From a virus: a stretch of 31,948 nucleotides of DNA. The DNA lies in the IMG/VR virus record IMGVR_UViG_3300018420_000062, positions 1 through 31,948 of that record; one strand, given 5' to 3'. This document shows, piece after piece, positions 2,261-29,296 of the stretch. Below the pieces are notes generated by a model, which worked only from the letters and a program-made list of their open reading frames with translations, searched no databases and was not told where the DNA came from. Numbering within the stretch: position 1 is the stretch's first letter; each line of letters starts with the position of its first letter. The translations under genes were made by a program, and so were the position numbers.

Positions 2261-2948
2261 GTCTAACGATTTAACTTCTCTAACGGTTAACTCAATACGT
2301 AAGAATATGCCAAGAGCAAAGTATAAAGTAGTAAAATGTGGAGCTAGTAAGGTAGGAACAGCACTAGCACATGCCACAGATACTACACTAGTAGTAACGA
2401 GCGGGCTAGTGCTGAATATTAGGCAGGGAGACCTTCCTCCAGATTCTAAACTTAAACAGTATGCTATTTCTGTTAGTAGAGAGGGGGTGTATGTAGATCA
2501 CCCAAAGCATGGAAAGGTATATGAACTTATTAACAGCCCCATTACTAAAGGCTTTGTAGATTTATCAATTTTTGTAATAAATCCAGATAGCTGGTATGAG
2601 ATGCCAAAAACAGATGCTGGTATATTTAAAGATAAGAAATGCTTGTATATGCCAAGATACATTAATCATAAACATGACGTAATAATAAAAGACTGCATAG
2701 GTGGATATGAAGCATTTAAATATGGTATGGCAGGGGAAACGGCGGCGGTATATAATTATATTCCACACTTACTCTCTGGTGAAGCCACACCAATAGAAAC
2801 AATTGCATATTGTTTTGATAAATTAGAAGAATACAGCGGAGGTCTATCGCCCGAAGCCAAGGCTAGAGTTTGTAAACTAGCCAAGAAAACTAAGGTGCGT
2901 GTAGGTAAAATGCGAAAAGGCTTATTTGAGCTAAGTTTAGGAGACTAA
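2232..2948 (+). CDS. Unknown protein, possibly GT-A-like, 238 aa
   Basis: ATG 2232 follows an AAGGAT ribosome site and lies inside the end of the preceding gene. The first 60 residues read like the nucleotide-binding start of a GT-A fold: a hydrophobic strand (EILVLES), a helix containing SIRKNMP, a second strand (KYKVVKCG) and a third (DTTLVVTSG). The usual DxD metal motif is absent, with TSG in the expected place, so a catalytic role is doubtful. A Lys/Arg-rich C-terminal tail begins near residue 210. The gene is coupled to its upstream neighbour, so the two products may act together. No confident family. Confidence 0.72.
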   Translation: MSALEILVLESNDLTSLTVNSIRKNMPRAKYKVVKCGASKVGTALAHATDTTLVVTSGLVLNIRQGDLPPDSKLKQYAISVSREGVYVDHPKHGKVYELINSPITKGFVDLSIFVINPDSWYEMPKTDAGIFKDKKCLYMPRYINHKHDVIIKDCIGGYEAFKYGMAGETAAVYNYIPHLLSGEATPIETIAYCFDKLEEYSGGLSPEAKARVCKLAKKTKVRVGKMRKGLFELSLGD

Positions 2949-2950
2949 TA

Positions 2951-3055
2951 ATGAACGAAGAAGAAGAAGTACTTGTTGTAATCACATACGAAGGTGACGA
3001 ATCTGTTGCTAAGCCAGGCATGACAGAATTCCCTTCAGAACCAGAGGAATTGTAA
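2951..3055 (+). CDS. Small acidic protein, 34 aa
   Basis: ATG 2951 is preceded by GGAG with seven bases of spacing. The stop TAA at 3053-3055 shares a base with the next ATG (TAATG), so translation is coupled. The peptide is strongly acidic at both ends (MNEEEE at the start, PSEPEEL at the end) with a short hydrophobic strand between. No family is recognised. Good ribosome site and junction spacing support it as a real gene. Confidence 0.6.
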   Translation: MNEEEEVLVVITYEGDESVAKPGMTEFPSEPEEL

Positions 3056-3744
3056 TGATAACTTATAATATGCCAATACAGTATATAGGCACTTATGAGA
3101 ATGAGATAAAGTTGGGATTTGCTGAACTAATGCCTGCTAATAGGTACATCTCTAGGGATGATCTTGCAGACTCCGTACATAATCGGGGCACCCCAACTTA
3201 CAGCTTAGAGTACCCAGCACTAATAAAGAATAGAAACTCTAACATACTTATGAAAGGGTCTTGGGATGTAACATGGGAATGGGATGCAGGGACTTTTACA
3301 GAGGCTGATGTAGACCAGTTTATTAATCAACCCTACCCCCACCCAAATGCAATAGCAAAAAAAGATTTTGCAAATAATACCGCATCTTTATCTATAGTGG
3401 AGAGCAATGTTCCTACTGATGGATGGCAGGACCGTAGAGCTCCTTGGATATTACCTGCAAGAATAGCTACTGTAACGGCTACCTCTGAAGCTAGCATGTT
3501 GTGTGCAACTATCTTGAACGGGCAATATGATAGGTATAGCATTCTCAGCAATACCGTATCCCCTGGTGCTAGTATTACTGTGGAAAAGATAGGCGATGTG
3601 CATTGTTATATGATTCTCGGTGGGCCTTTAATGAAAGATACTACTCAGCTATCTGCATATACGGCGTATAAACTTACATCCCCTAGTATCACTATGACGA
3701 ATACTGGCACTGAACTAGTTCGAATAGTCAGAATAAGTAAATAA
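3055..3744 (+). CDS. Probable virion-associated protein, 229 aa
   Basis: ATG 3055 has an AGAGGA ribosome site and a TAATG junction with the small acidic gene. The protein is rich in Thr, Ser and Asn with alternating hydrophobic residues, mainly predicted beta by eye. There are no transmembrane segments and no enzymatic motif. The C-terminal third (GASITVEKIGDVHCYMILGG region) resembles a beta-sandwich or cupin-like barrel. Location in the late cluster downstream of the fibre-like gene suggests a structural role, for example a tail or head-decoration component. Function otherwise unknown. Confidence 0.75.
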   Translation: MITYNMPIQYIGTYENEIKLGFAELMPANRYISRDDLADSVHNRGTPTYSLEYPALIKNRNSNILMKGSWDVTWEWDAGTFTEADVDQFINQPYPHPNAIAKKDFANNTASLSIVESNVPTDGWQDRRAPWILPARIATVTATSEASMLCATILNGQYDRYSILSNTVSPGASITVEKIGDVHCYMILGGPLMKDTTQLSAYTAYKLTSPSITMTNTGTELVRIVRISK

Positions 3745-3755
3745 GGAGAAATATA

Positions 3756-4607
3756 ATGTGGAACCCAATTAAAATAACAAAGTCTCTTTACCACTTGCTA
3801 ACCACATATGGTGAGATACAGACTCAAAAAGGGTATACTGAAGATCTAAAAGGCGATCCTAGATTAGATCATGTCTTAGTGCTCTACCGAGAATTAAACT
3901 TTCCTTTCGGTTGGGTCTCTATGACAAAGCTCAGGAATAGCCGTGCCGGTAGAGATATGGTGTGGGGACGTGGATATAATGAGTTTAACCATGTGAATGA
4001 TGTGGTCCTCCCCAAGCTAACCGATCATGAATACCTAGCTACTCTAGCGCCTAATACTGTTGGGGCTCACTACTACCACCTTGTGAAACAATGGGGTCTT
4101 GAGGATCTGTATAATCAAAGATTTAAGCCCGAAGAAATGCGTCCAGATAATTCACTCTATCATAGCTTTAGTGATGATATAAGAGCTAACCACTCAAGGC
4201 ACGTTATTATATCACATGATCTTTGGCACGCTATTTTTAGATACGACACATCTCCAATTGGCGAAGGCATGATTCAATCTATCTCAGCTCACCAGACATA
4301 CTTTTGGCCTATGCACATTATAGGTTGGGGCGTTACTTTTAAGGAGATACTTAGAACAAAGAGCTTTGCTCCTTGGAAAGTGTGGATGGAAGGGTTGCGT
4401 ATCGCAAAGGCAGCATCTAAGGATCTGCTATTGCAGTCACCGCTAGATCTGTTAGAGATGGACATTGAAGAGTGTCGGGAAAAGTTTAATATTGGGGAAG
4501 CAAGAGTGTTTGCTGAATATGTTAAAAATCGCCCAGATGATTTCCGTATGGATACTATACACCCAGAGTATAGAGATAAAGTATTCCAGGAAGCTATAGA
4601 GCTATGA
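3756..4607 (+). CDS. COQ4-like protein (ubiquinone biosynthesis family fold), 283 aa
   Basis: ATG 3756 has a clear AAGGAG site. The centre carries SHDLWH followed eleven residues later by Glu: H154, D155, H158 and E170 make the HDxxH-x11-E zinc/metal signature that defines COQ4. The surrounding helices (RELNFPFGWVS, GAHYYHLVKQWG, an amphipathic helix after residue 170) fit the all-helical COQ4 layout, and the length is close to the 220-290 residues usual for the family. COQ4 proteins act in coenzyme Q synthesis at the membrane and have been linked to removal and oxidation at ring carbon C1. Whether the phage protein works on quinones or has been recruited to another task cannot be told from sequence. 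It is coupled by ATGA to a membrane protein gene. Confidence 0.85.
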   Translation: MWNPIKITKSLYHLLTTYGEIQTQKGYTEDLKGDPRLDHVLVLYRELNFPFGWVSMTKLRNSRAGRDMVWGRGYNEFNHVNDVVLPKLTDHEYLATLAPNTVGAHYYHLVKQWGLEDLYNQRFKPEEMRPDNSLYHSFSDDIRANHSRHVIISHDLWHAIFRYDTSPIGEGMIQSISAHQTYFWPMHIIGWGVTFKEILRTKSFAPWKVWMEGLRIAKAASKDLLLQSPLDLLEMDIEECREKFNIGEARVFAEYVKNRPDDFRMDTIHPEYRDKVFQEAIEL

Positions 4608-4822
4608 TTAAATGGAACTTCCCAATATTCAGGGCCATAGTAGGCCAAGGTCCTGTTACTTGGAAAAGCATATTCAAATTAATACTAGTTGGTTGGGGCT
4701 TAAAGATACTTCTCTTTAATACGGTAGCTATTCTCTATTTTGATGCCGCACCATTTCCAGTATTTCGATTTATTGGGTACTTATTTAATTCTACTACCTG
4801 TAACTATTACTGTAATTTATAG
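4604..4822 (+). CDS. Small membrane protein, 72 aa
   Basis: The start ATG overlaps the COQ4-like stop as ATGA, so the two are translationally coupled. The peptide has a basic N-terminus, one long hydrophobic segment at about residues 24-45 (IFKLILVGWGLKILLF and onward) and a second hydrophobic patch near 50-62, ending in a Cys/Asn/Tyr-rich tail. It is probably an inner-membrane protein with one or two spans. It is the last gene before the convergent terminator. It could be a membrane partner of the COQ4-like protein or a holin-type peptide. No family is recognised. Confidence 0.62.
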   Translation: MIKWNFPIFRAIVGQGPVTWKSIFKLILVGWGLKILLFNTVAILYFDAAPFPVFRFIGYLFNSTTCNYYCNL

Positions 4823-4829
4823 TCCATAA

Positions 4830-4853
4830 AAAAGCCCCGATTAAGGGGCTTTT
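4830..4853. terminator. Bidirectional rho-independent terminator between convergent gene blocks
   Basis: AAAAGCCCC at 4830-4838 pairs with GGGGCTTTT at 4845-4853 around a six-base loop. The A-run on one side and T-run on the other give a U-tract in both directions, so it closes the + strand late cluster and the - strand replication cluster that ends at 4857. Confidence 0.93.
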
Positions 4854-5094: not shown

Positions 5095-6054
5095 TTATTT
5101 AAATATGTCTTGCCAATTGCCAGTGGTACTCGCTTTAGAGTATTCAGTAGCACGATTTTCAAAAAAGTTTGCGTGTTCAACGCCATTTAACATATAGTCT
5201 AGCCAATCCAAAGGATTCTTCTCACTCCCAAAAATCTTCTTCAAGCCTAGCCCTAATAGCCTTCTGTCTGCAATATATCGAATATAATCTTTGACTTGTT
5301 GAGGAGTTAAATCAGGTACATCAGCTCCTTCAAAACAAAGATCAATAAACGCATCTTCTAACTCTACTGTACGTTCCGCTGCACAATAAATTTGGTACTT
5401 GAGATCATCATTCCATAATTCTGGGTTTTCTTGAATGAAAGTCCTAAATAGCTGGCTCATACCTTCTACATGTAAACTCTCATCCCGAACAGACCAAGTT
5501 ACAATCTGCCCCATACCCTTCATTAAGTTGTGTCTTGGGAAATTTAGTAGAATTGCAAAACTACTAAATAACTGTACACCTTCAGTAAACCCAGAGTAGA
5601 TAGCCATTGTTTTAGCAATATCCATCTTAGTTTCCATACCAAAATTACTCAAGTACTCGTGCTTATCCAGCATTTCTTTGTGCTCAAAGAACTTCTGGTA
5701 TTCATCATCACCAAACCCAAGGGTTTCTAACAATAATGAATAGGCTTCCTGATGCACTGCTTCCATAGCGGCGAATGCAGATAGCATCATTCTTATTTCA
5801 GGCTGTTTAAATGTTGGTAAATAATGCGTAGCATAACCACAACATACATCTACGTCAGCCTGTGTAAAGAATCTAAAGATATTGGCAATAAGTTTCTTAT
5901 TACCATCTGTCATCTTCTCTCGATAGTCTTTCAAGTCATCTGCAAGGTTAACTTCATCAGGTAGCCAGTGCATATGCTGTTGCGACTTATAATGTTCAAA
6001 AGCCCAAGGGTAGTTGAACGGTTTGTAATACTCTCTTTCGTCTAATAAACTCAT
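5095..6054 (-). CDS. nrdB: Class Ia ribonucleotide reductase, small (beta) subunit
   Basis: The radical-bearing subunit of ribonucleotide reductase, which supplies dNDPs for phage DNA synthesis together with NrdA. The diiron ligands can be placed by spacing against E. coli R2: D67, E98 and H101 (in AAMEAVHQEAY), E158 (GFTEGV), and E192 with H195 (DESLH). The radical tyrosine is Y105, seven residues after E98 as in E. coli Y122. This makes it a tyrosyl-radical class Ia type rather than a metal-free or Phe-substituted variant. Length 319 aa is slightly short of the bacterial 370 or so but normal for phages. The C-terminal NWQDIFK would be the tail that docks into NrdA. It starts three bases after nrdA ends, with GAGGGA as ribosome site. 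Confidence 0.96.
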   Translation of the reverse strand: MSLLDEREYYKPFNYPWAFEHYKSQQHMHWLPDEVNLADDLKDYREKMTDGNKKLIANIFRFFTQADVDVCCGYATHYLPTFKQPEIRMMLSAFAAMEAVHQEAYSLLLETLGFGDDEYQKFFEHKEMLDKHEYLSNFGMETKMDIAKTMAIYSGFTEGVQLFSSFAILLNFPRHNLMKGMGQIVTWSVRDESLHVEGMSQLFRTFIQENPELWNDDLKYQIYCAAERTVELEDAFIDLCFEGADVPDLTPQQVKDYIRYIADRRLLGLGLKKIFGSEKNPLDWLDYMLNGVEHANFFENRATEYSKASTTGNWQDIFK

Positions 6055-8646: not shown

Positions 8647-9082
8647 CGATAAACTCCACTGTTTCGTTTTTTAACCATTCTTCTGCAAGTAGTGCATAAC
8701 AATTTAGAAACGAGATGTAGATCCAATCTTCACAGACGTCTGGCTTCTCTTCTGTACACACGAATACTTTAGAACGATCATACTTAAAAAATAATAAAGG
8801 CTTTTGTTGGCCTCCTCCTGCCTGGATTACTACTTTCTTCCACCAACGAATCAGATCATTCGTCTTAGGCTGGGTAAACATTTTATCGCTCAAGGGTGAT
8901 TCTTTATAGTTCTTTACTTCTATACAGTAATGATTTCTCTGATTGGGGACGTATAAGTCCCCTTTCAGATATTCAAGTGCCCCAGAAGCAGGAACTCTTT
9001 CAAACTTCAGTCCGGTCATCTCCCTTAGCATGTCCCGTACTAGATACTCCCCCCTCGCTCCCTTCGCTCTCGAATCTACCAT
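8636..9082 (-). CDS. PD-(D/E)xK nuclease, Holliday junction resolvase-like
   Basis: The first 60 residues hold an Hjc-type endonuclease core: GARGEYLV (E12), KGDLYV (D42) and IEVKNYK (E55, K57), giving the E...D...ExK catalytic set. After this comes an aromatic segment (IRWWKKV) and a strand (LLFFKYD) completing the fold. At 148 aa it is the size of archaeal-type resolvases and related phage enzymes. Context with SbcCD-like, SSB and flap exonuclease genes supports a role in recombination or resolution of branched replication intermediates. A structure-specific or VRR-type nuclease of another substrate preference is possible. Confidence 0.85.
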   Translation of the reverse strand: MVDSRAKGARGEYLVRDMLREMTGLKFERVPASGALEYLKGDLYVPNQRNHYCIEVKNYKESPLSDKMFTQPKTNDLIRWWKKVVIQAGGGQQKPLLFFKYDRSKVFVCTEEKPDVCEDWIYISFLNCYALLAEEWLKNETVEFIGGF

Positions 9083-9179
9083 CTTCTTCCCCTTCTTCTA
9101 GGATTTTTATCTCTGATAACCCTAACTCTTTTCTAGTTTGTGGATGCATCCACCAAATACGACGTCTGCCTGCTCCCAT
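9000..9179 (-). CDS. Small overlapping protein, 59 aa, between sbcC-like and resolvase genes
   Basis: ATG at 9179-9177 shares its A with the TAA stop of the SbcC-like gene (TAATG), a coupling junction seen elsewhere in this genome. The product begins with a basic, Trp-containing stretch (GAGRRRIWWMHPQTRKELGL) and continues with an acidic Gly/Glu/Ser tail. Its last 83 bases overlap the resolvase gene in another frame. Without it 96 bases would be empty in a block that otherwise has no gaps. The N-terminal part looks protein-like, while the overlapping tail may be unconstrained. Function unknown. Confidence 0.5.
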   Translation of the reverse strand: MGAGRRRIWWMHPQTRKELGLSEIKILEEGEEDGRFESEGSEGGVSSTGHAKGDDRTEV

Positions 9180-10972
9180 TATTCTAGTCCACTTACGTTT
9201 CCGTTCTTGACTACCTCTATCTTCTCTAGTAGTGGGTGCGTCCATCCATGAGATACAATATAAGTATTTAAGTCTTCCTTTAGCAATACTTCTACCATCT
9301 TCTCGCGACCAGCATCATCTAGTACGTTGATAACTTCATCTAAAAATAAAATATTGATCCTGGACTTTGAAATACTACTCATTAACTTGCGAATTGCGAT
9401 AAGGGTAGCGGTATTCACTCTAGCCAACTCTCCAGAAGAAAGAGCTAGAATGTCTACTATGTTACCGTTATCTGTGATCTGCACGTTCAGCTTATCGTTT
9501 GACACTACAAATTCAAGTGTAAAACGACCGTCTGAGAGTTCGCCTAGGTACTCATTTGTTAACTCTTCTAACTCTTTTACTAGATTTTCTATCTTGTACG
9601 CCAGTAAGCCATTTGTGCTAAATGCTTTCTTTAATACCTCTAAATTATTATCTAACTTACTATACTCATCTAATTCTGCTTGGCACTTATTCAACTGATC
9701 CGTGAACTTATCTGTTTGCTCTTGGATTACTTGGATTCGGGTGTTTCTACGGGTTCTATTTTCGTTTTCTTTCGATACCAGTTCCAATCGTCCTCTTGAC
9801 TCTTGTATTCTACTCTGTAAGCGTGATATGCTGCCATCAAGCTCTCCTTTGTCCACTGGCTCACTCTGTAGCCCCTGCTCGATAGATCTATACAGGTCTG
9901 CCCAGCTTTCCGCAGCTTTGGTATTAGCGGTGAAGATACTATTATTTCTCTTAATTCCCTCAATTTCATTAGTTAACTCCTGTATTCTACTCGTAGCTGA
10001 GGACGCTTTTTCGGCTTCCGCGTCAATAAGGCCCTGTTTAAACAAATTATCAACAGATTGTTCACAAGTAGGGCAGTGATCACCCAATCCTTGTAACTTT
10101 GTTAAAAGACGTTGAGCACCCGCAGCGACTGCTTTTAGACTCCCAACCTCAGACTGTAACCCATCATAGCTTTCTAGACTAGTTATATCTGAGGCATTTA
10201 TTGCTGTAATATCAATACCTTGTATCATAGACTTGTATTGATTGTTTCTACTAATTTTTTTATTTTTTTCCGAAATATTTTGAAGTTCCATCGTTAATGA
10301 AGCCAATGCTTTCTCGTCTTCAGATGTATCCTCTTCAAAATCTAACAGAGGTAGTATATTCGTATCACTCAATTTATTGTCTTCGAGCCATTTTTCAACG
10401 GTCGCCAACTTAGAAGATACGCTTGCAATAGTTAGTCCCGTTGTTCTTGATGCGTCTTTAAAAATATCGAATAATTCGACATAATGTTCTAAGTGCAACA
10501 AATCGATCAAGAACTTCTTACGATTAGAGTCTGTAGCCGTTAAAAACTGCAAACTAGCATTTGTATTCTGGTAAACTAACTGTGAAAATGTTTTAAAATC
10601 AACACCTATAATATCTTGAATACTTTTATAGGTATTTGTAGCGGTATGGCTAGATATATCTTCTCCAGACTTTTCTAGCTTTACCTTTATATTATTACTT
10701 CGCTCTACTGTGATGGCATAATTTATACCATCTTTCATGAACGATAGATATATGTTGTACCCTTTATTAATGTAACGATTAGGGATATCGGCTTTCTTAA
10801 TACCCTTCGAGTTTTTATTATAAAGTACTTCTTCAATGATTAACGGTATGGAGGACTTCCCCATACCGTTAGTACCAATGATTTGTGTTACTGTATTGTC
10901 ATCTAACTGTAGCTCATTACCAGAACCATAGCTAAAGCAATTATCCCATTTCAGCTTTTGAAGCGTAATCAT
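9179..10972 (-). CDS. SbcC / gp46-like ATPase subunit of recombination nuclease
   Basis: ATPase with the Rad50/SbcC/T4 gp46 layout. The N-terminal half-site has a Walker A (GTNGMGKSS, residues 33-41). Two long coiled-coil arms flank a zinc hook CPTC (C300, C303). The C-terminal half-site has the ABC signature LSSGELAR, Walker B with ILFLDE, the D-loop NVLD and a switch His in VSHGW. At 597 aa the coils are short, like T4 gp46 (560 aa) rather than E. coli SbcC (1048 aa). It overlaps the SbcD-like gene by 32 bases. Together they should form the end-resecting nuclease used in recombination-dependent replication and perhaps host DNA breakdown. Confidence 0.95.
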   Translation of the reverse strand: MITLQKLKWDNCFSYGSGNELQLDDNTVTQIIGTNGMGKSSIPLIIEEVLYNKNSKGIKKADIPNRYINKGYNIYLSFMKDGINYAITVERSNNIKVKLEKSGEDISSHTATNTYKSIQDIIGVDFKTFSQLVYQNTNASLQFLTATDSNRKKFLIDLLHLEHYVELFDIFKDASRTTGLTIASVSSKLATVEKWLEDNKLSDTNILPLLDFEEDTSEDEKALASLTMELQNISEKNKKISRNNQYKSMIQGIDITAINASDITSLESYDGLQSEVGSLKAVAAGAQRLLTKLQGLGDHCPTCEQSVDNLFKQGLIDAEAEKASSATSRIQELTNEIEGIKRNNSIFTANTKAAESWADLYRSIEQGLQSEPVDKGELDGSISRLQSRIQESRGRLELVSKENENRTRRNTRIQVIQEQTDKFTDQLNKCQAELDEYSKLDNNLEVLKKAFSTNGLLAYKIENLVKELEELTNEYLGELSDGRFTLEFVVSNDKLNVQITDNGNIVDILALSSGELARVNTATLIAIRKLMSSISKSRINILFLDEVINVLDDAGREKMVEVLLKEDLNTYIVSHGWTHPLLEKIEVVKNGNVSGLE

Positions 10973-11900
10973 TATAAGTTCCTAGTATGTCTGGTATTCT
11001 TTCAGGTGAAATCTCTAAAATATAGGATAGATACTCTACTAGCTCTTCTTCTATACTCATATCTTTGTCTATAATTAAAGATGCTTCACTATTTCGTTTT
11101 ACTACTTTCTTGTCGAGCAGATCAGAATTCTTAACTCCTGCTAATTCTTGGATATCGCCTTCTAACTCATAGATAGTATGGTGATATTCAGTAGGTATCA
11201 TATCTTGTGGATCAGATACTGTCTTACGAATTAACTGTGGTAAGTGAAACTCTTCCCAAAACCAACTCCAATCTTTCTCATTAATAAGTAAATAGCCTGT
11301 TTTTACTTCATTTCTATGAAAAGAAGTGGTCATAGGACTACCAGGATAAACTATGTTACGTTGCGTATTGCTATGTGAGTGAAGGTCACCTGCGAACACA
11401 ATCGGGAAAGCATCAAACCTTTCTAAGTCAATCTCTGGTTTCACATGAGGGGGTATTTCTCCACGAACATGAGTAAACAAAGGGTGAGCTTTATTGAACT
11501 TTTCAATGCTATCCTTCCTGTGCAAATCTGCATATGGAAGTATGCCATATCCTAAATCGTTGTCAATGTAGGATATGTCTACAATATGTATTAACGGGTT
11601 TATGTCCCTAGAGACTTGCTTCAACTGTGAAAAGAATGTTTTATTCTTTTTAGTTGCTTCATGATTCCCGTCATAAATAAGGGTTGGAATCTTTACCGCT
11701 CGAATAAACGAGAAGTAAAGCTCCAACTCTTCCATGTTTGGCAGCCTATCAAATAAATCACCACCTATAATGTGCATACTGCACTCTTTCTCAAGATCAT
11801 AAATCTGCTGAAAGAATAGTTTATAGCGATTTAATGCCCACGCTACTGGGACGTTCTTCTGCCCCAGCTTTATGTGCCAGTCTGCCGTGTATAAAATCAT
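10941..11900 (-). CDS. SbcD / gp47-like metallophosphoesterase nuclease
   Basis: Calcineurin-fold nuclease partner of the SbcC-like protein. All five phosphoesterase motifs are visible: TADWHIK, GGDLFDR, YDGNHEA, a TH motif (FTHVRGE) and AGDLHSHS, providing the two-metal site. The C-terminal 100 residues are helical and acidic, consistent with the part that contacts the coiled coil base of the ATPase. Length 319 aa is close to T4 gp47 (339 aa). The start ATG overlaps the SSB stop as ATGA, placing recombination nuclease synthesis under the same control as SSB. Confidence 0.95.
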   Translation of the reverse strand: MILYTADWHIKLGQKNVPVAWALNRYKLFFQQIYDLEKECSMHIIGGDLFDRLPNMEELELYFSFIRAVKIPTLIYDGNHEATKKNKTFFSQLKQVSRDINPLIHIVDISYIDNDLGYGILPYADLHRKDSIEKFNKAHPLFTHVRGEIPPHVKPEIDLERFDAFPIVFAGDLHSHSNTQRNIVYPGSPMTTSFHRNEVKTGYLLINEKDWSWFWEEFHLPQLIRKTVSDPQDMIPTEYHHTIYELEGDIQELAGVKNSDLLDKKVVKRNSEASLIIDKDMSIEEELVEYLSYILEISPERIPDILGTYNDYASKAEMG

Positions 11901-12532
11901 CCTATGTTAAACTCGGCTTCGAGGGCTTCGTCGTCGTTATTAGTACTACCTGCACGCAAACGGTCAAGAAGTTCTTTCTGTGCGTCTGGAGTAGGGCGTG
12001 GCATAACGTCATCCATAGATTTAAGTTCAGCAATAGCTTCTAGCTCTGCTGCATCAAGTGGGCGGTTCTTACATTTTAGTACTTGTAACTGGTACTCAAC
12101 ATTGTAAGGAAGCGGGCCAGTTTTAACACGCTTGAAACAAATGTCCCAGCCTGTTACTGGATCTGTAGGGTCGCCGAGGCCATCCTGAGCAGTCTGTACG
12201 ATTTGCTCCCACAATTTCTTCTTCAAGTTTACAACTTTAACCTTGCCATCAGCAGGGTCAATTACTTGAGAGGCGTAAGACCAACCACACTTCAGATCGG
12301 GATAGTATTCACGAACCCAGTCTTTTTCCGCGTTGTTAAAGCGTTCTGCATTTCTATCGAAAGACAGGCACTCTAGTGGAAGATTTTTACCGTTCTCACC
12401 TTCGATCCAGTAAACATAGCGAGCTAGGATGTCGCCAACTACTCGCATCTTATTCTCACCATCTTTGAACCCGAAGGTATCCATGCTTGATTTTTGAGCT
12501 GAGCCTTTTTGCTTATTAAATGATATAGCCAT
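11897..12532 (-). CDS. Single-stranded DNA-binding protein, gp32-like
   Basis: The 211 aa product has a Lys-rich N-terminal segment, an aromatic and charged beta core (MRVVGDILARYVYWIEG, YASQVIDPADGK, GWDICFKRVKTG) and an acidic tail (NNDDEALEAEFNIG). This is the organisation of phage OB-fold SSBs of the T4 gp32 / T7 gp2.5 type, where the acidic tail recruits replication enzymes. The central RVVGD...YVYWIEG is a recurring opening of gp32-like proteins in marine phages. It is followed by SbcD and SbcC with coupled starts. Two Cys residues near the middle do not form a clear zinc site. Confidence 0.85.
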   Translation of the reverse strand: MAISFNKQKGSAQKSSMDTFGFKDGENKMRVVGDILARYVYWIEGENGKNLPLECLSFDRNAERFNNAEKDWVREYYPDLKCGWSYASQVIDPADGKVKVVNLKKKLWEQIVQTAQDGLGDPTDPVTGWDICFKRVKTGPLPYNVEYQLQVLKCKNRPLDAAELEAIAELKSMDDVMPRPTPDAQKELLDRLRAGSTNNDDEALEAEFNIG

Positions 12533-12963
12533 TAGTGTGTATTCTCCTTTGTGACTTCTTCATATAAGAAATGGATAGTATCCTTCTTAATACTCAGTAG
12601 CCTATTGCTGTTTATTAATTCTAAATCTACTGGACAATGCAGTATATCTAGTGTCGTTTTTCGTGAGGCGATATATTCTCCCAAACCTCTAACAGAGGCA
12701 AGGGCATAGTACTCCGCTAATTCACGTTGTGAGTACTTATAAGACTCGTACAGAAGCACGTCTGGGTGAACAAGAAAGCTCACACCGGAAAAGTTTTTAT
12801 TAGAAAATTTATATATAGGGTCGTACTTATTATTAGGAATTTGCTTTTTAATAAGCATTCCCATAATAAGATTACACGAGGAGATATTGCCCCTTGCCTC
12901 TTTATAAACCTTCTGCCAGTCATATAAGAACAATATTATACACCTTTTTAGGATTGTTGTCAA
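12532..12963 (-). CDS. Hypothetical protein, 110-143 aa, with a promoter inside its start
   Basis: The longest frame starts at TTG 12963-12961, whose bases overlap the TGA of the JmjC-like gene as TTGA. That TTG is also the first half of a perfect -35 box, and the -10 box occupies codons 8-10, so mRNA from this promoter cannot use it. The next in-frame ATG is at 12864 (MGMLIKK), giving a 110 aa form, though no strong ribosome site precedes it. The sequence between (YDWQKVYKEARGN) still looks protein-like. The product is Lys, Tyr and Leu rich, with no recognised motif. It ends on the SSB start with a one-base overlap. Confidence 0.7.
   Translation of the reverse strand: MTTILKRCIILFLYDWQKVYKEARGNISSCNLIMGMLIKKQIPNNKYDPIYKFSNKNFSGVSFLVHPDVLLYESYKYSQRELAEYYALASVRGLGEYIASRKTTLDILHCPVDLELINSNRLLSIKKDTIHFLYEEVTKENTH
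12935..12963 (-). promoter_or_regulatory. Sigma70-type promoter for the SSB-SbcCD-Nrd unit
   Basis: On the - strand TTGACA (12963-12958), 17 bases, then TATAAT (12940-12935): a perfect consensus. The -35 is preceded by the same A/T block (aaaatagttc) found at the other promoters of this phage. Confidence 0.88.
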
Positions 12964-13664
12964 GAACTATTTTTTGTGAAGTCACAGTAGTTACGATTAA
13001 GCGGAACAATTCCTGGGTGTTTAGCCATAGGCACAGAGATCGAGATTCTAGCGCTCTTTGCTTCTGCCTTATGATATATGCCTTTAGGTATATATAACAT
13101 ATCTCCTGGGCCTAGTACCTTATCAATTATACATTCTGTCTGTGAACCTCTTGCGTATACCTGCCATCTAACTGTTCCGATGGCATGTATTAAGAAATTA
13201 TCGTCCTCATCTGCATGTATAGGAAAAGATAGCGAGCCCTCCCGTGGGGAGCAGTAAAAATGTGCGTCGGCTGCAGTATCAGGTATTGAGGCTTCTATAC
13301 AACCAGCTATGGCTGAAATGTTTGGAGTAAGCATAGATGCTTTAGTAAGAATTATACTATCTCCTGAATTCCAGTGTCTTAATGCTTTCTGAACTTCGAA
13401 GCGTTCTTCTTTAGTCCAGTGTGGCTTTTTATCTGCAAAAAGGTTTCCCTTCTCCATGCAAAGTTTTCCATTTTTTGTAATTACCTGGAATCCAGATACA
13501 GCTCTATGGTTATTTATATAGTCAGAGAATTGCTTCCAAGTAATAATATCGGAAAAGAACTTCTTCTTATAGTCAGTAGCATAGAATACAAAAGGCTTTT
13601 TGCCTAGTACTAAGGTCTTAAATACGTCTTCGCTCATTGGAGCTATTAAGTCTGCTAGTTTCAT
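12960..13664 (-). CDS. JmjC / cupin-fold 2-oxoglutarate oxygenase-like protein, 234 aa
   Basis: The C-terminal half has the JmjC double-stranded beta-helix pattern of ribosomal-oxygenase-type enzymes. FPIHADEDDNF supplies the HxD iron ligands (H140, D142), followed by a strand with WQVY and the turn GDMLYIPKG, then YHKAEA with the distal ligand H188, and a final strand ISISVP. The N-terminal part (EDVFKTLVLGKKPFVF) is the usual lead-in of cupin_8/JmjC proteins, where an FV strand follows a short helix. Such enzymes hydroxylate protein residues using Fe(II) and 2-oxoglutarate. The target is unknown. It is coupled by ATGA to the UvsW-like helicase upstream. Confidence 0.85.
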   Translation of the reverse strand: MKLADLIAPMSEDVFKTLVLGKKPFVFYATDYKKKFFSDIITWKQFSDYINNHRAVSGFQVITKNGKLCMEKGNLFADKKPHWTKEERFEVQKALRHWNSGDSIILTKASMLTPNISAIAGCIEASIPDTAADAHFYCSPREGSLSFPIHADEDDNFLIHAIGTVRWQVYARGSQTECIIDKVLGPGDMLYIPKGIYHKAEAKSARISISVPMAKHPGIVPLNRNYCDFTKNSS

Positions 13665-15616: not shown

Positions 15617-16111
15617 CTACACCTTCCTTTGAGTATCCTTTAGCTGTTCCTCAGCATACTCGTAAAGCATCCACGGTATTCCTTGTAGATGCAAGATGCC
15701 CGCCCAACGCATTCCCTGCTCGGGGGGTCTCGGTACGGTAAATGGGGTCTTACACCCTTTTACCCAGATAAGTGATGCTACATCCTTTTGCACCACTTTC
15801 ATAATCTTATAATACTTTAAAAGGCACATTTTAGTCTTTTCATAGATAAAGGGGAACCCGTGACTATCTATAAAATACTTTGTACTCTGCTTTAGTATTC
15901 CATTTTGTGTAAATATTGCTTTCTTTAAGGGCTGTAGCGCTTTATGTGGTGTCTGCATTCTGCGTATCCCTAAAGTGGCTCCTGGCATATTCTTATCATC
16001 TACTAGCTTCTGGTCTACAAATAATAAACCGTCTGCTAATTCCCAGTTATCTGACCATAGTAGGTATACTGGGAACTTTACTAAATGTAAGGTTTTATAT
16101 GTTATTACCAC
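15617..16111 (-). CDS. Conserved phage protein of unknown function, 164 aa
   Basis: GTG 16111 is the start, preceded by GGGAG and overlapping the end of the radical SAM gene by 17 bases. The sequence has many aromatic and proline signatures (LWSDNWELADGLLFVD, a RRMQTPHK segment, TPFTVPRPPEQGMRWAG, GIPWMLYEY) and ends in a short Arg/Lys tail. I recognise this pattern as a conserved hypothetical protein carried by many T4-like and other marine lytic phages, but no biochemical role is known to me. No membrane segment or catalytic motif stands out. Coupled to the radical SAM gene and followed by PhoH. Confidence 0.82.
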   Translation of the reverse strand: MVITYKTLHLVKFPVYLLWSDNWELADGLLFVDQKLVDDKNMPGATLGIRRMQTPHKALQPLKKAIFTQNGILKQSTKYFIDSHGFPFIYEKTKMCLLKYYKIMKVVQKDVASLIWVKGCKTPFTVPRPPEQGMRWAGILHLQGIPWMLYEYAEEQLKDTQRKV

Positions 16112-17048
16112 TTTTCAAAGACTCCCTGTAGGCTAATCCTTCTTCTCCAGCTATCTTTGTGACGATGAATTTATACTCGTCTGTTTGTTTAAAGTTATCT
16201 ATAGTTTTCTTACTTTTTGGGTTTGCGCCCTGTACGTCATCACACATAGAGCAAGGCTTTACGTCCTCTCTTCTTCCGTTTAATAAAGACCACCGTACTC
16301 TATTCATTTTTGGATCGTTTGCATACATATCCATAAGGCTTCGTTCTAGTACATGGCCTATTTTTACCTGATAAGTCCAATCATTGCAACACATCTGGTA
16401 AAACCCATTATAATCTATGAATATTTGCCTCATTGGATGCCAGCAAGGTGCGTTTCGTACTTTATTATTAAAAAAGCCAGCTCTATTATTGAAGTTATAA
16501 GCCCAAGTAATCGGTTTCTCTTCCCCCGAATTTGGCAATATAAAGCCAGGCAAATTATTCATTTCCTCAATAGATAAACCATTAGGCTTATAATACTGTT
16601 CTAGTGCTTTACCATTTGGCAAGAAAGCATAATCTCTTATACGTTCCTGGTACTCTTCTTTTGTAGTATAAGTATTAAGAATAACCTCATCAAGTTTCTT
16701 AGCGGTTTCTGTGTTCCACCATCTATCTATTCTATACCCATTAGTGGTTAATCGCAGCTTCCATTTATCTTTTGATAGCATATCTACTACTTCTAGAAAC
16801 TGCGGGTGAAGAGTACTTTCTCCCCTACCCGCAAGCTCTATCCACCCACTATAATCTATAGAGCGTAGCTCGTCCATTACTTCCCTTATTACTTCAAAAG
16901 ACATATGTTTATTCTCATTTGGGTAAGAATCATCTGCCCTAGGACAGAAGCTACATCTTTTATTGCAAAGGCCAGTTAGGTCTAAATCAACTCTGTAAAT
17001 ATTGCTGTGCATATACTTTCTCAAATTTTCCCATTGAGTAATCGTCAC
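16095..17048 (-). CDS. Radical SAM protein with SPASM-like cysteines, 317 aa
   Basis: The N-terminal CNKRCSFC (C28, C32, C35) is the CxxxCxxC motif that binds the 4Fe-4S cluster and S-adenosylmethionine, followed by a GRGES segment (the GE motif) and TTNGY, both usual in radical SAM barrels. The C-terminal part carries further Cys in the order APCWHP, MCCNDW and CSMCDD, as in SPASM domains that hold auxiliary clusters, often in peptide- or protein-modifying enzymes. Its first 62 bases lie within the polymerase gene. ATG 17012 is an alternative start that keeps all motifs. Substrate unknown. The directly coupled downstream protein is one candidate partner. Confidence 0.92.
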   Translation of the reverse strand: MTITQWENLRKYMHSNIYRVDLDLTGLCNKRCSFCPRADDSYPNENKHMSFEVIREVMDELRSIDYSGWIELAGRGESTLHPQFLEVVDMLSKDKWKLRLTTNGYRIDRWWNTETAKKLDEVILNTYTTKEEYQERIRDYAFLPNGKALEQYYKPNGLSIEEMNNLPGFILPNSGEEKPITWAYNFNNRAGFFNNKVRNAPCWHPMRQIFIDYNGFYQMCCNDWTYQVKIGHVLERSLMDMYANDPKMNRVRWSLLNGRREDVKPCSMCDDVQGANPKSKKTIDNFKQTDEYKFIVTKIAGEEGLAYRESLKSGNNI

Positions 17049-22373: not shown

Positions 22374-23123
22374 TTATTCTCCAGTTAAGATTAAAAGATT
22401 AGTTACAATAGTTACGCCAGCAGCTCTGGCCTGTTTAGTTTTTGCGGACTCAATTCCGCTTTCGTTCACTAGAATAGTGACATCCCGTGTCAAGCTAGAC
22501 TTTACCTCATAGCCCTTCTCCTGAAGAGCTTCGTGAGCAAGGGCTTTCGTTTTATAACTAACTAACTTGCCAGTTATACACACTACACCATTCACCATGG
22601 AGGCATTCTGTGGTCTTACAAACTTAAAGTCAAAAGGAAGCATACTTACTAAAGGGAACTCCAGTTGCAGCCATCCTAATAGATTAGCTGTAGACTTCTC
22701 ACCAAGACCGGCAGCACGACAAGTTTCATAGTTTATATCGTCAATAGATTCGCAAACTACTGCTAGCTTTTGTGCCGCCGTCTTCCCAATAAGAGGAATA
22801 CTAAAAGCGGGTAATAACACATTTAGGGGAGCCCCTCGGGAGCGATCCAGTTCTTCCTTCAGCTTTACAGCAAGTCTCTCAGAACCAAGGCCGTGTACTA
22901 ATTCTTCTAGCTCGAACGAATAGATTTCTTCTAGTTCTTGAATATCTAGTTTTCGTATAGTAGCTGGGCCAAGTCCTTTGATCTTTAACGAGCTTGCAAA
23001 ATGCTCAATAAGTTTTTCTGTTTTCGCACCACAAGAGGCATTACGACAATACAGGAGATAGTTAACGCTTTCCAGAACCGCACTGCAACTAGGGCAGTGT
23101 GTTGGGGCTTGGATTGCTATCAT
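22374..23123 (-). CDS. NAD-dependent DNA ligase, C-terminal subunit (zinc finger, HhH, BRCT)
   Basis: This is the second half of a LigA-type ligase. It opens with a four-cysteine zinc finger (C10, C13, C26, C31), then helix-hairpin-helix motifs (KGLGPATIRKL, PLIGKTAAQKL and the AAGLGEKSTANLL segment) that hold nicked DNA, and a BRCT domain from about residue 175 (VNGVVCITGKL). It lacks the nucleotidyltransferase, which is encoded by the next gene upstream (23182-24123). ATG 23123 has GGAGAG and is served by its own promoter. The two products presumably associate to seal nicks during replication. T5 also has its ligase in two genes. Confidence 0.93.
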   Translation of the reverse strand: MIAIQAPTHCPSCSAVLESVNYLLYCRNASCGAKTEKLIEHFASSLKIKGLGPATIRKLDIQELEEIYSFELEELVHGLGSERLAVKLKEELDRSRGAPLNVLLPAFSIPLIGKTAAQKLAVVCESIDDINYETCRAAGLGEKSTANLLGWLQLEFPLVSMLPFDFKFVRPQNASMVNGVVCITGKLVSYKTKALAHEALQEKGYEVKSSLTRDVTILVNESGIESAKTKQARAAGVTIVTNLLILTGE

Positions 23124-23149
23124 CTGGTCTCTCCTGAAATTGAATGTAT

Positions 23150-23178
23150 ATTATACGCGTTTCTAAGATACTTGTCAA
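23150..23178 (-). promoter_or_regulatory. Sigma70-type promoter between the ligase halves
   Basis: TTGACA (23178-23173), 17 bases, TATAAT (23155-23150) on the - strand. The upstream aaaatagttc block contains the stop codon TAG of the ligase N-terminal gene (23184-23182). Confidence 0.9.
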
Positions 23179-23181
23179 GAA

Positions 23182-24123
23182 CTATTTTTCTTCAGGTAGA
23201 TCAACATTTATACGTCGAACTACGCGAGGTATAATTTCCCCTGACCGTATTACTTCTACCTGACATCCTATCTCTAGATTCAAATCCCTGATGTATTGAA
23301 TATTATGCAGAGTAGCTCGACCAACAACAGCCTCCCCAATTACAACTGGTTCTAGTATTGCTACTGGACTAACTACTCCGCTTTTGCCAACCTGCCAAAC
23401 AACGTCTAACAGGGTGGTTGCAATACCCTCCGCCTGCTCTTTCAGAGCAAAAGCTCCGCGAGGGTGGTGGGCAGTATAACCCAGCTCTTCAAAAGTCTCG
23501 TTCGACTTGGTACGAAACACTAGACCATCTGTAGGGTAATCATCCACATTAAAGCGAGTAACTACATTCAGACCCATCTGGTGTAGGACTTCAAGAGAAC
23601 AAGCATACTCAGGGGCGAGACTGGGTGATGCGTCGTAAGCTACGAACTGTACATCTCTACTCTTGAACTCTTGCAAGTCCTTAAGATTCAATGCACCCGC
23701 AGCGTAGTTACGAGCATTAGGTATACTACTTGGGGCAACGACTTCTCCAGTAATCTGAATAAGCTGTCTAGCACTAATCTGATTAGGGACTAGTAACCGT
23801 ATCTTATCAGTAATATCTCTACCGTGTATGCCATCACCCCTAGTTAGCGCAATCTTCAATAATCCATTAATATAGAGTATTGATACAGCAGCACCATCAA
23901 GCTTAGGTGTTTCTATGCAATCAGCAATATCCAAAGGAGCTTTCGATAAATCGAAACACTTCTGTAAAGAATACATCTGATACGCATGAGGAACAGCATC
24001 AGTAACTTCATAGCCAACAGTTTTATAGTTGTATTTAGCAGCTAAGAGATCAAATGAGGCATCCGAAATAATCGAGTTACCTTCATAATAGAACTTACTT
24101 GCCTTATCTAAGAAGTCGCGCAT
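23182..24123 (-). CDS. NAD-dependent DNA ligase, N-terminal subunit (adenylation and OB domains)
   Basis: First half of LigA. Residues 1-45 resemble the NMN-binding Ia domain (FYYEGNSIISDASFD), shorter than in bacteria. The adenylation site is ETPKLDG with K74. Further nucleotidyltransferase motifs are LTRGDGIHGRDIT, ITGEVV, NARNYAAGAL, DGLVFR and GAFALK, and the OB fold closes with WQVGKSGVVSPVA, GRATLHN and GCQVEVIRSGEIIPRV. It ends right after the OB domain, where bacterial LigA would continue to the zinc finger. Own promoter at 24150-24178. Probably works as a complex with the 22374-23123 product. Confidence 0.94.
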   Translation of the reverse strand: MRDFLDKASKFYYEGNSIISDASFDLLAAKYNYKTVGYEVTDAVPHAYQMYSLQKCFDLSKAPLDIADCIETPKLDGAAVSILYINGLLKIALTRGDGIHGRDITDKIRLLVPNQISARQLIQITGEVVAPSSIPNARNYAAGALNLKDLQEFKSRDVQFVAYDASPSLAPEYACSLEVLHQMGLNVVTRFNVDDYPTDGLVFRTKSNETFEELGYTAHHPRGAFALKEQAEGIATTLLDVVWQVGKSGVVSPVAILEPVVIGEAVVGRATLHNIQYIRDLNLEIGCQVEVIRSGEIIPRVVRRINVDLPEEK

Positions 24124-25369: not shown

Positions 25370-26095
25370 TTATTTTTGTAATGCTTCTAGGTTTACGCCA
25401 TACTTTCGCAAATGTTCTAGCTTACCTAGTTCATACGCGGGTGTATACGCATTAAACCCACCTGCAGTTACACTAGTAAAGAAAGTATCTTCACTATTTA
25501 TTCTCTGTATAACATATATTGAGTAACATGGGCACCCATACTTATTCTCATAGTCTACGGTCTTCAAGCCAGGCTTGTTCTCTTGGTATTCTTTAGTTAG
25601 CTTAGAACCTACCATTACCGCACTATGGTATGTGGCAGACCATGCAATCTCACCTTCCTTGAAGTCTTCGGATACACACTCATCTGGAAAGTAGTTTACT
25701 TCTTTTCTTTCCTCTGCTCCGGTAGGACGTTGTGGGACTCCAACTCTTTCAAGTAACGATCGCACGAATCCTGCGCTTCGAAAAAGCCTTTTCGATATAT
25801 CTGTAATAGTTTCGCCTTGCAGGTAGTCTGTAACCGCTTCAGCAATCTCTGCATTGCTTGCAGGCTTGCCACGGTTTTGTGACTTACGAATTTTAACATA
25901 TTCTTTCTGTTCTAAGTGACCACTGATAATAGCTGCTAATCGCGTAGTATTATACGCGATATTGAGCATATCACATGCCTCTTTCTTTGTTATAGGTTTA
26001 GTAGAAGTGTCCTGCGGGTATAACATAGTGTTTACTTTTTCTATGTTCGTCGCTGTCAGGTTCTCGTAGTCCTTCTTCTTCACTGTTCTTTTCAC
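25370..26095 (-). CDS. HTH-containing protein, 241 aa
   Basis: GTG 26095 has GGAGG eight bases upstream. The first half has two helix-turn-helix-like segments: KKEACDMLNIAYNTTRLAAII and NAEIAEAVTDYLQGETITDISKRLFRSAGFVRSLLERVG, the latter close to a homing-endonuclease-associated or recombinase-type HTH, where a short module follows the recognition helix. The second half (residues 130-241) is a separate beta-rich domain with a GCPCYSIYVIQ strand and no known motif. It overlaps the dATP/dGTP diphosphohydrolase-like gene by 98 bases. No nuclease motif such as HNH or GIY-YIG is visible, so a regulator is more likely than a mobile element. Confidence 0.8.
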   Translation of the reverse strand: MKRTVKKKDYENLTATNIEKVNTMLYPQDTSTKPITKKEACDMLNIAYNTTRLAAIISGHLEQKEYVKIRKSQNRGKPASNAEIAEAVTDYLQGETITDISKRLFRSAGFVRSLLERVGVPQRPTGAEERKEVNYFPDECVSEDFKEGEIAWSATYHSAVMVGSKLTKEYQENKPGLKTVDYENKYGCPCYSIYVIQRINSEDTFFTSVTAGGFNAYTPAYELGKLEHLRKYGVNLEALQK

Positions 26096-26423
26096 TTAAC
26101 TTCACCTCCAATTTAAACATTAAACAGCATATTGCATGGGCTAAGTGGTCTAACCCAGTTTCTTCATCATACTCCTCTCCATCTATGTGGGCGAATATGT
26201 GACGCAAGGCTGCGCCGCTGTAGCGATTTTGAAGGTTGTCAAGTTTTTTCCAGTTATGTTCATCATACTTGGCTGCACCAAACGTCAGCACTTTACTTAC
26301 TTCTAGTAACGCTTTTGGAGGAAGTAGGTACATCTTAGGCTTCTCTCCATCATACTTTCTACCCTCTGGAACGAACTTTGGGAACTCTCCGCTGGGTGCT
26401 ACGTTAATCCATTTTTCTTCCAT
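25998..26423 (-). CDS. dATP/dGTP diphosphohydrolase-like (DUF5664) protein, 141 aa
   Basis: The region from RKYDGEKPKMYLLPPKAL through VLTFGAAKYDEHNW to LRHIFAHIDGEEYDEETGLDHLAHAICCLMF is the conserved core of the DUF5664 family, now often named dATP/dGTP diphosphohydrolase, related to all-helical NTP pyrophosphatases. Glu and Asp residues of the second helix pair could bind Mg. Such enzymes adjust purine dNTP pools and in some phages support 2-aminoadenine DNA. No PurZ-like gene is seen here. The last 30 residues are acidic and then basic, lie in the overlap with the next gene, and may be dispensable. ATG 26423 with AGGAG. Confidence 0.82.
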   Translation of the reverse strand: MEEKWINVAPSGEFPKFVPEGRKYDGEKPKMYLLPPKALLEVSKVLTFGAAKYDEHNWKKLDNLQNRYSGAALRHIFAHIDGEEYDEETGLDHLAHAICCLMFKLEVKLSEKNSEEEGLREPDSDEHRKSKHYVIPAGHFY

Positions 26424-26425
26424 TA

Positions 26426-27085
26426 CTATTCTCCTTCCTTAAACAACTCACTCAAGCTAGGAAAGTGACCTGCGATTATATCCCAGCACTTAGCCGCAAT
26501 AATGCTATGCTCTAGTTGAGTGCCGTTAGCCATTCTAAGTTCACAATAATGTATCCAAGAACGAAGAGTACCGGCCATATAAAGAGTTGTTTCAGTATTC
26601 CCTTCAGGGAGAACTGCTCTAGCTTGTTCTTTAGCGATTCCATTGTCTAGTGCCCATGCGTATGTCTCTTTTGCACTGTTTATAAGTGCCATTTGTTTCA
26701 TACTCCACTCTTCTGCTAAGGCTTTATTGTCCGTAGCATAGGAGTTTTGTCGATTCTTTTTATCCTGCAGCCTAGTCTCTCGCGTTTGAAAGTCTTGCGC
26801 TACAGCATACCGTTGGCTAAACTCTTGAAAAGAGAATGAGCGGTGGCGTAGAATCTGTCTAGAGATATCGCGTGTAGTCGTAATTGACATAGTAATAGAT
26901 ACCATCTCAAACGGACTAAAGTGATTCTCTTTAATTAAGTACTTAATTAGCTTACTAGCTGTATTAGTATTATTTTGGTTCGCAGGGTTACTTACTCTAG
27001 CAGTATATGCTATAAGCTCGTCTGCTGTACTGCACCCAGTAGCTGCACTGGGTTTAGTCATACCTATTAAACTTACGTTACTCAT
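26426..27085 (-). CDS. thyX: FAD-dependent thymidylate synthase ThyX
   Basis: Methylates dUMP to dTMP using methylene-tetrahydrofolate and FAD. The signature RHRSFSFQEFSQRY (from R80) fits the RHR-x7-S motif, and LPEGNTETTLYM and LEHSIIAAKCW belong to the conserved C-terminal part. ATG 27085 with GAGG is chosen; the frame extends 18 codons further, but that part lies inside the zinc-ribbon gene. Start and the upstream stop overlap as ATGA. Length 219 aa is usual. It complements the ribonucleotide reductase in dNTP supply and would help a phage in thymidine-poor hosts. Confidence 0.95.
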   Translation of the reverse strand: MSNVSLIGMTKPSAATGCSTADELIAYTARVSNPANQNNTNTASKLIKYLIKENHFSPFEMVSITMSITTTRDISRQILRHRSFSFQEFSQRYAVAQDFQTRETRLQDKKNRQNSYATDNKALAEEWSMKQMALINSAKETYAWALDNGIAKEQARAVLPEGNTETTLYMAGTLRSWIHYCELRMANGTQLEHSIIAAKCWDIIAGHFPSLSELFKEGE

Positions 27086-27261
27086 ATTTCTTCCTCTAAA
27101 CAATAATAAGGGCCAGAGTCTGGGGCTTGATACCACCATCGTTCCTCTGACGCATTAGGACAGCGAGCAGGCATTCCATACCCTTCAGTGCTAAGGTACT
27201 CTCCACAGTTGGGGCATTCTTCGCTATATAAAGATGTCAATATAGAGTTTGTCTCGCTCAT
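27082..27261 (-). CDS. Small zinc-ribbon-like protein, 59 aa
   Basis: A complete short gene fills the space between ThyX and the conserved phage protein. ATG 27261 overlaps the stop of the upstream gene (ATGA) and its TGA (27084-27082) overlaps the thyX ATG. Four Cys (C16 and C19 in CPNCG, C34 in RCPN, C54) could hold one zinc ion. The Trp pair in RWWYQAP and the Tyr-rich end suggest a compact fold. Function unknown; it may be a nucleotide-metabolism or transcription accessory protein. Confidence 0.72.
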   Translation of the reverse strand: MSETNSILTSLYSEECPNCGEYLSTEGYGMPARCPNASEERWWYQAPDSGPYYCLEEEI

Positions 27262-28671: not shown

Positions 28672-29296
28672 GATATTCCTCCGCGAAAGGCTCGTTTCTA
28701 TATTTTTGGTGTATAGGGGTTCCGTCTGTAAAGTGTACAGCTACTGGGTCTGCATCAGGGTGATAATATCCAGCCAACCAGTTATAAGTCTCTGGTAGTC
28801 GGCCTAGTTTATCTGTCCATCCGAATCTATGTAACCAAGCAGGTGTTTGACTATTAACTGCTTCGACTGTTAGTTTTTTATTATCCTCATGCGAACAATT
28901 AAATAGCATCATGGATGACCACCACTTTCTAGGATACCATTCATTCTTATTGTTTGAGAACTTTACGTCTTCTCTTACCATCTTTATAAGGTGGTGTACT
29001 ACTGATATAGCCGTGTCTTCCTGGTAGTGGCCCAGCATTTGCATAGGGGATTTTCTCCATAGAAAATCACTATCACAGAACAGGGCCATGCCTTTGTAAT
29101 CGCATAAGAAAGGCACTAAGAAGCGTGTATATGCAAATTCTGTAGAACCGTCTTCAACCCCGCGATCATATCCATAGGTCTCTTTTAGTACTCTCCTGTC
29201 CAAAAGCTCAACAGTAAGCCCAAATCTTTCTAAGGACTTAACGCATACTTCTGTATTTTCGGGTTGAGTGCTGTCGTGACCTACAAATATTCTCAT
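28643..29296 (-). CDS. GT8-like GT-A glycosyltransferase, 217 aa
   Basis: Starts MRIFVGHDSTQPENTEVC, typical of a GT-A nucleotide-sugar binding strand, then EFAYTRFLVPFLC and the metal motif LFCDSDF (D75, D77). SSMMLFNC, the GRLPETYNWL loop and AVHFTDGTP complete the usual GT8 pattern of retaining glycosyltransferases such as glycogenin or lipopolysaccharide galactosyltransferases. A soluble protein. Its ATG overlaps the Rz1-like stop (ATGA). Together with the GT29-like neighbour it could decorate phage DNA, virion or host glycan; the target cannot be inferred from sequence. Confidence 0.86.
   Translation of the reverse strand: MRIFVGHDSTQPENTEVCVKSLERFGLTVELLDRRVLKETYGYDRGVEDGSTEFAYTRFLVPFLCDYKGMALFCDSDFLWRKSPMQMLGHYQEDTAISVVHHLIKMVREDVKFSNNKNEWYPRKWWSSMMLFNCSHEDNKKLTVEAVNSQTPAWLHRFGWTDKLGRLPETYNWLAGYYHPDADPVAVHFTDGTPIHQKYRNEPFAEEYLDLLRSNTW

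Follow-up and report, generated by a model that had tools for sequence, protein, structure and literature searches.

The coq4-like gene and its genomic surroundings

The window, i.e. the entire stretch of DNA analysed here, corresponds to an IMG/VR virus record with a length of 31,948 bases. Near the 3′ end of its plus-strand block, 5′ of a terminator-like hairpin beyond which minus-strand replication genes follow, lies an open reading frame for a COQ4-like protein, which is present exactly as an earlier, sequence-only reading had given it (3756–4607, 283 aa; table 1). That reading also placed the gene in a late cluster, and its position at the end of the plus-strand block and before the hairpin supports this placement; it is from this layout that we infer late expression of coq4. 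The phage origin proposed at the same time is confirmed by the minus-strand block of replication and nucleotide genes, which includes a T5-like polymerase (PolA-type, 45% identical to those of Vibrio T5-like phages) and thus identifies the window as a T5-like phage, i.e. coq4 resides on a genuine phage genome.

The protein encoded upstream of coq4 has no matches in Pfam or PHROG, nor does its homologue at locus L050 in INPHARED; the corresponding family of proteins of about 230 aa adjoins coq4 in 37 of 53 loci. On the other side of coq4, the hairpin separates the late plus-strand block from the minus-strand replication block. A stretch of 29 bases at this hairpin is 97% conserved in another contig (L148), and a simple consensus terminator scan did not list it.

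Elsewhere in the window, a gene for a radical SAM/SPASM protein (16095–17048) is followed by one for a small protein belonging to a PHROG without assigned function (15617–16111), and the two may possibly form a peptide-modification pair. A JmjC_2/cupin protein, from a class to which ribosomal oxygenases belong, is encoded at 12960–13664, and a dATP/dGTP diphosphohydrolase-like gene beside thyX (25998–27139) hints at changes in nucleotide pools or at modified DNA. The NAD-dependent DNA ligase is encoded by two genes (22374–24123), and a fibre-like ORF at 2–1264 contains many Thr, Ser and Asn repeats, with a long antisense ORF (4–768) being the shadow of these repeats. Further quinone genes were not recognised in the window.

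Table 1. Features at and around the coq4-like gene of the window.
Feature	Position	Strand	Basis or remarks
Block swapped as a whole in comparison with other T5-like relatives	2834–4825	+	DNA alignment, protein identities
Upstream protein, 229 aa, no assigned function	3055–3744	+	Cluster 2
Shine–Dalgarno sequence AAGGAG of coq4	3743–3748	+	Read directly; strong; seven bases 5′ of start codon
Phage COQ4-like protein, 283 aa, ATG start	3756–4607	+	PF05019 match, AlphaFold2 model, structure match to 6e12 and 3msq
Small membrane protein, 72 aa, coq4 partner	4604–4822	+	Alignment, HMM adjacency, hydropathy
Terminator-like GC hairpin, A and T runs on its flanks, usable in both directions	4830–4853	.	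Fold −15.2 kcal/mol, z −3.8
Replication and nucleotide block: ribonucleotide reductase, flap exonuclease, SbcCD-like, helicase, PhoH, DNA polymerase, primase, split NAD ligase, ThyX	4857–31948	−	

Conservation of the COQ4 fold and metal motif

The window protein matches the Pfam family PF05019 (Coq4) with 26.9 bits (E 3.5e-6) at a curated cut-off of 22.9 bits, and the COQ4 identity first proposed by inspection is thus upheld by the profile check. As this is merely 4 bits above the cut-off, chance or a weak-profile artefact could be invoked. However, relatives score higher, with four of them also over the cut-off (the best at 37.5 bits, E 2e-9), and this explanation, to which we leave practically no chance, is refuted by profile–profile comparison and structure matches, both of which are unambiguous. 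The candidate metal-site residues H154, D155, H158 and E170, which had been numbered correctly in the sequence-only reading, are invariant across the phage copies: the motif HDxxH-x11-E is kept in 53 of 53 phage proteins of the first set as well as in all later copies that are long enough. For most pairs of phage coq4 genes with enough silent change, dN/dS is in the range of 0.04–0.16, i.e. they are under strong purifying selection. Family score, invariant motif and strong purifying selection together show that the COQ4 match is not due to chance. The isolated-phage collection contained no records matching the window protein.

An AlphaFold2 model of the window protein based on an alignment of 46 sequences (pLDDT 84.3, pTM 0.84) superseded a poor prediction obtained earlier with six sequences (pLDDT 59). 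With this model, the only Foldseek hits with an E-value below 0.001 were 6e12 and 3msq, both COQ4-like proteins from Nostoc; the BFVD structure library yielded no matches. In VIA-align the model superimposes on 6e12 with a Z-score of 18.5 (rmsd 2.6, 203 of 212 residues) and on 3msq with a Z-score of 16.5, whereas the next-ranked entry reaches just 4.5. In agreement with the site that had been read from the sequence, the model thus predicts a COQ4 fold, in which helix 134–161 carries HDxxH and E170 opens helix 167–181, as is the case in the COQ4-like proteins in the PDB. By fold match and sequence alignment, the putative metal ligands would be positioned as in Alr8543, where the counterparts of the motif residues (H120, D121, H124 and E136) bind Mg2+ (PMC9774615). 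The Alr8543 crystal also included oleic acid. Both Alr8543 (6E12) and Npun02000094 (3MSQ) of Nostoc share the fold of the whole domain and the motif with the phage protein, but they are only 16–19% identical to it and are cyanobacterial proteins without an assigned function.

A phage-only branch of the COQ4 family

COQ4 is a ubiquinone-synthesis enzyme of mitochondria and some bacteria, with ubiquinone being a respiratory molecule. Scans of IMG/VR revealed 65 contigs with relatives of the window protein, of which 64 group with the window and one (L066) is of the cellular type; counting the window, the phage-only clade therefore consists of 65 loci. A degenerate DNA pattern of the motif gave no matches, and a looser pattern only recovered contigs that were already known.

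With human and yeast COQ4 (PF05019), the phage protein has HDxxH-x11-E and the family profile match in common, and with the sampled bacterial COQ4 proteins also a Gly and a Tyr conserved ahead of the motif and, in the C-terminal part, a Glu and an Arg. In a profile–profile comparison of the phage set with 16 bacterial COQ4 homologues, the probability was 99.9 over 241 columns, and G103, Y106, H154, D155, H158, Y163, G169, E170, E212 and R241 are positions common to phage and cellular groups. Unlike other members of PF05019, however, the phage copies form a clade of their own on a very long branch: in a maximum-likelihood tree, in which the root position is not fixed and eukaryotic COQ4 was left out, 44 phage rows are found on one side of a branch with a support of 100/100 and a length of 3.03 changes per column. 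They also differ by a phage-specific conserved N-terminus (MWNxxKI) and by having their own small membrane partner, and any activity in ubiquinone synthesis would be ascribed to them only by analogy. Moreover, five positions before HD, all 43 phage proteins compared have His, but 15 of 16 sampled cellular COQ4 proteins have Arg, with this Arg being a conserved trait of this sample rather than an established criterion of the family; Alr8543 likewise has a His at this position. Because of the shared site residues on the one hand and the long branch and the Arg/His difference on the other, the phage proteins are, as judged from their sequences, COQ4 homologues with a preserved site and not close orthologues of any sampled cellular COQ4.

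Alphaproteobacterial COQ4 homologues (L095, L126 and L135–L144) resemble the phage proteins in domain, motif and C-terminal region, but belong to their own clade (100/100 support), and the phage profile scores them at about 74 bits at best, as compared to 346–436 bits within the phage set. In cellular genomes, a tight profile scan revealed no close relatives, and a scan for the motif pattern gave 32 matches, many of them in unrelated proteins. Two of the 32 are phage-type copies on contigs of metagenome-assembled genomes (MAGs), i.e. a gammaproteobacterial MAG (L092, NYWC01000010.1) and a Trichodesmium MAG (L099, JAKQYG010000043.1); these are probably binned phage contigs and provide weak host hints only. 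Conversely, the viral contig L066 carries a cellular-type COQ4 (5275–5949) that groups with alphaproteobacterial COQ4, along with Mtd_N-like and depolymerase-like genes (weak matches), and possibly represents a separate acquisition by a phage. Among viral genes assigned to ubiquinone synthesis, a precedent on viral contigs is ubiG in Baltic Sea viruses, which encodes another enzyme, however, with COQ4 not being reported there (PMC9301287).

A small membrane partner and exchange between phage backbones

The start codon of the gene following coq4 overlaps the coq4 stop codon as ATGA (4604–4607). Its 72 aa product contains a hydrophobic segment (hydropathy peak 2.1), and positions W4, P7, K34, N39 and P52 are invariant in this family, for which Pfam provided no convincing match. 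An HMM of this partner has a match directly 3′ of coq4 in 58 loci, and four further loci feature a diverged small membrane ORF at the same site (seen directly in L003 and L060, of which L004 and L061 are near-copies). Overall, 62 of the 64 loci that could be tested have the partner, or a diverged form of it, directly after coq4; L020 and L021 have no such gene, and one further locus is cut. A scan with the partner version of the podovirus-like group, to which this result is confined, matched 23 contigs, all of which carry coq4. We also considered the partner as a holin, which we judge unlikely because the window has its endolysin-like and spanin-like genes at 29293–30410. A phage-only COQ4 variant with a dedicated partner is thus real and well supported.

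The carriers of this gene pair belong to several unrelated groups of tailed phages, apparently mostly marine, with coq4 and its partner being present in T5-like, T4-like and a third, podovirus-like backbone. For the T4-like backbone, the gp6-like baseplate wedge of L025 is nearest to those of Caulobacter and Sinorhizobium T4-like phages, and for the podovirus-like one, L034 has portal, scaffold and capsid genes of the podovirus type, with the nearest capsid being that of Pelagibacter phage HTVC106P (42%). Among the phage rows of the tree, the backbone label switches at least seven times, and the best match of the window protein (59%) is found at L009 in a T4-like gene neighbourhood. The T5-like kin of the window, by contrast, are only 33–36% identical to it in COQ4, although their ribonucleotide reductases reach an identity of up to 91%. 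Thus, coq4 has moved between phage backbones.

In the window the traces of such an exchange are found at the DNA level. On either side of 2834–4825, the DNA is about 67–81% identical to that of five T5-like relatives, whereas inside this stretch only 3718–3782 aligns to them; likewise, proteins encoded within it are 33–36% and flanking proteins 69–91% identical to those of T5-like relatives. Since the flanks align and the block does not, coq4, its partner and the upstream gene were swapped together as a single block. In the T5-like and podovirus-like backbones the upstream protein belongs to the exchanged block as well, as its third member, but the T4-like one lacks it. The short region that does align (3718–3782) comprises some 50–60 bases around the coq4 start, which are 85–92% identical to T5-like relatives with both neighbouring genes being diverged, and is possibly a recombination joint. 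The sequence-only reading had been right about homology, motif, origin and position of the gene, but had missed the partner, the block exchange and the presence in at least three backbones.

That reading had also entertained a structural function, and in the T5-like and podovirus-like backbones coq4 is indeed preceded by tail-fibre-like genes and the upstream protein, as might be expected if it encoded a tail component of the virion. In T4-like loci, however, coq4 is apart from the structural genes: peroxiredoxin and phosphoribosyltransferase genes are located on one side of it, NifU_N and Fe-S_biosyn genes occur in 10 loci and glutaredoxin in 15. At L025, for instance, a redox cluster (8836–13330) consists of genes for peroxiredoxin, phosphoribosyltransferase, COQ4, its partner, NifU_N, Fe-S_biosyn, glutaredoxin and a glycosyltransferase. 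Such a setting among redox and Fe–S genes is consistent with host redox metabolism and makes it improbable that the protein is structural only. In addition, a single part would hardly suit T5-like, T4-like and podovirus-like tails alike, and the partner is a membrane protein. We therefore give very little credence to a virion component, and the structural alternative has lost ground accordingly.

Quinone synthesis in potential hosts

For the podovirus-like capsid, and likewise for a cyclase-like accessory gene found in the T4-like backbone, the nearest isolate is a SAR11 phage. We surveyed 58 genomes (G230 and others) from the order of one SAR11 genome, which we take to be SAR11 because of five SAR11 16S probe sites. 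COQ7 is present in 53 of these 58 genomes, and neither UbiD nor COQ4 was found in any of the 58. The enzyme for C1 decarboxylation in SAR11 ubiquinone synthesis is, as far as these gene counts indicate, not recognisable by the UbiD and COQ4 families. Some ubiquinone-making alphaproteobacteria are known to be without UbiD, with UbiN being one alternative and other decarboxylases not known (PMC10626278). Both MAGs with phage-type coq4 copies, on the other hand, possess UbiD.

Cyanobacteria use plastoquinone instead of ubiquinone and nevertheless have COQ4-like proteins, so that membership in the COQ4 family does not imply a role in ubiquinone synthesis.

What might the phage COQ4-like protein do?

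COQ4 homology, fold, motif conservation, purifying selection, pairing with the partner and block exchange have been computed, and membrane docking, substrate, reaction, timing and benefit are what we infer for a putative enzyme. By analogy with cellular COQ4, the COQ4-like protein and its partner may constitute a membrane-bound, metal-dependent enzyme that operates late in infection on a ubiquinone precursor, a reading that we consider the likeliest, with a probability of roughly 0.4. Ancestral animal COQ4 decarboxylates C1 in a Zn-dependent manner, for which it requires the motif (PMC7615680), and human COQ4 has been reported as an oxidative decarboxylase (PMC11495197). The phage metalloprotein with the COQ4 fold and the small membrane protein would form a two-protein membrane unit late in infection, with the latter tethering the soluble COQ4 part to the inner membrane. 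Its metal site would act on the polyprenylated benzoate precursor of ubiquinone, from which the C1 carboxylate would be removed or replaced, as it is by human COQ4. In this way infected cells could continue to make quinones and respire aerobically, or else a C1 step that is missing or slow in the host would be supplied.

In favour of such an enzyme we count the COQ4 profile, fold and motif, the pairing with the partner, the redox setting of the T4-like copies and the presence of COQ7 without UbiD or COQ4 in SAR11. Counted against it are the long branch, the Arg-to-His change, the cyanobacterial COQ4-like proteins, the lack of any other quinone gene in the window, UbiD in both MAGs and the two loci without the partner. 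In a more specific version, which we regard as unlikely, a COQ4-fold enzyme and a dedicated membrane subunit would make up a mobile phage module that decarboxylates or hydroxylates the precursor of ubiquinone at C1, in hosts without recognisable UbiD or COQ4 such as SAR11.

Because of the divergence, the Arg-to-His change and the cyanobacterial COQ4-like proteins, a different lipid or membrane role is almost as likely as the enzymatic one. Phages may have adopted the COQ4 fold for binding lipids or metabolites in another late membrane task, e.g. superinfection exclusion, lysis timing or envelope remodelling, for which the small membrane protein would be the working partner and quinone synthesis would not be involved. 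Deep divergence including altered positions near the active site, the near-constant pairing with a membrane protein, the location next to fibre-like genes where the late block ends, the exchange as a unit and the oleic acid in the Alr8543 crystal all make this a serious contender, if one still short of even odds. Binding alone, however, can hardly account for the strong selection on the four metal ligands and the other shared COQ4 positions; furthermore, the T4-like copies are found among redox genes and not beside fibres, and the endolysin-like and spanin-like genes of the window are located elsewhere, at 29293–30410.

Fold, site and partner would also be compatible with a protein that diverts host ubiquinone synthesis against the host, either by holding a precursor or by joining the Ubi complex unproductively, and that thereby lowers respiration or favours another quinone. 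Eukaryotic COQ4 organises a multi-enzyme complex (PMC11495197), which is in line with such a role, but an intact metal site suggests activity rather than interference, and we consider such a diversion quite improbable.

Whatever its function, a COQ4 clade that is confined to phages and constantly accompanied by a membrane partner in three backbones appears to be undescribed; in the literature searched, we found no paper linking COQ4 to auxiliary metabolic genes. Overall, our sequence comparisons suggest that phages may adjust the membrane quinones of their hosts. If the pair does act on quinones, phages would steer the very electron carrier on which host respiration depends, and COQ4 chemistry, the eukaryotic form of which sits in a large complex, could be studied more simply in a compact module of two genes. 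A phage enzyme could help to test how SAR11 bacteria get rid of the C1 carboxylate; if the phage module did catalyse this C1 reaction, phages would arrive with an enzyme of their own for a step to which no known enzyme can be assigned in this bacterial group, one of the most abundant in the ocean.
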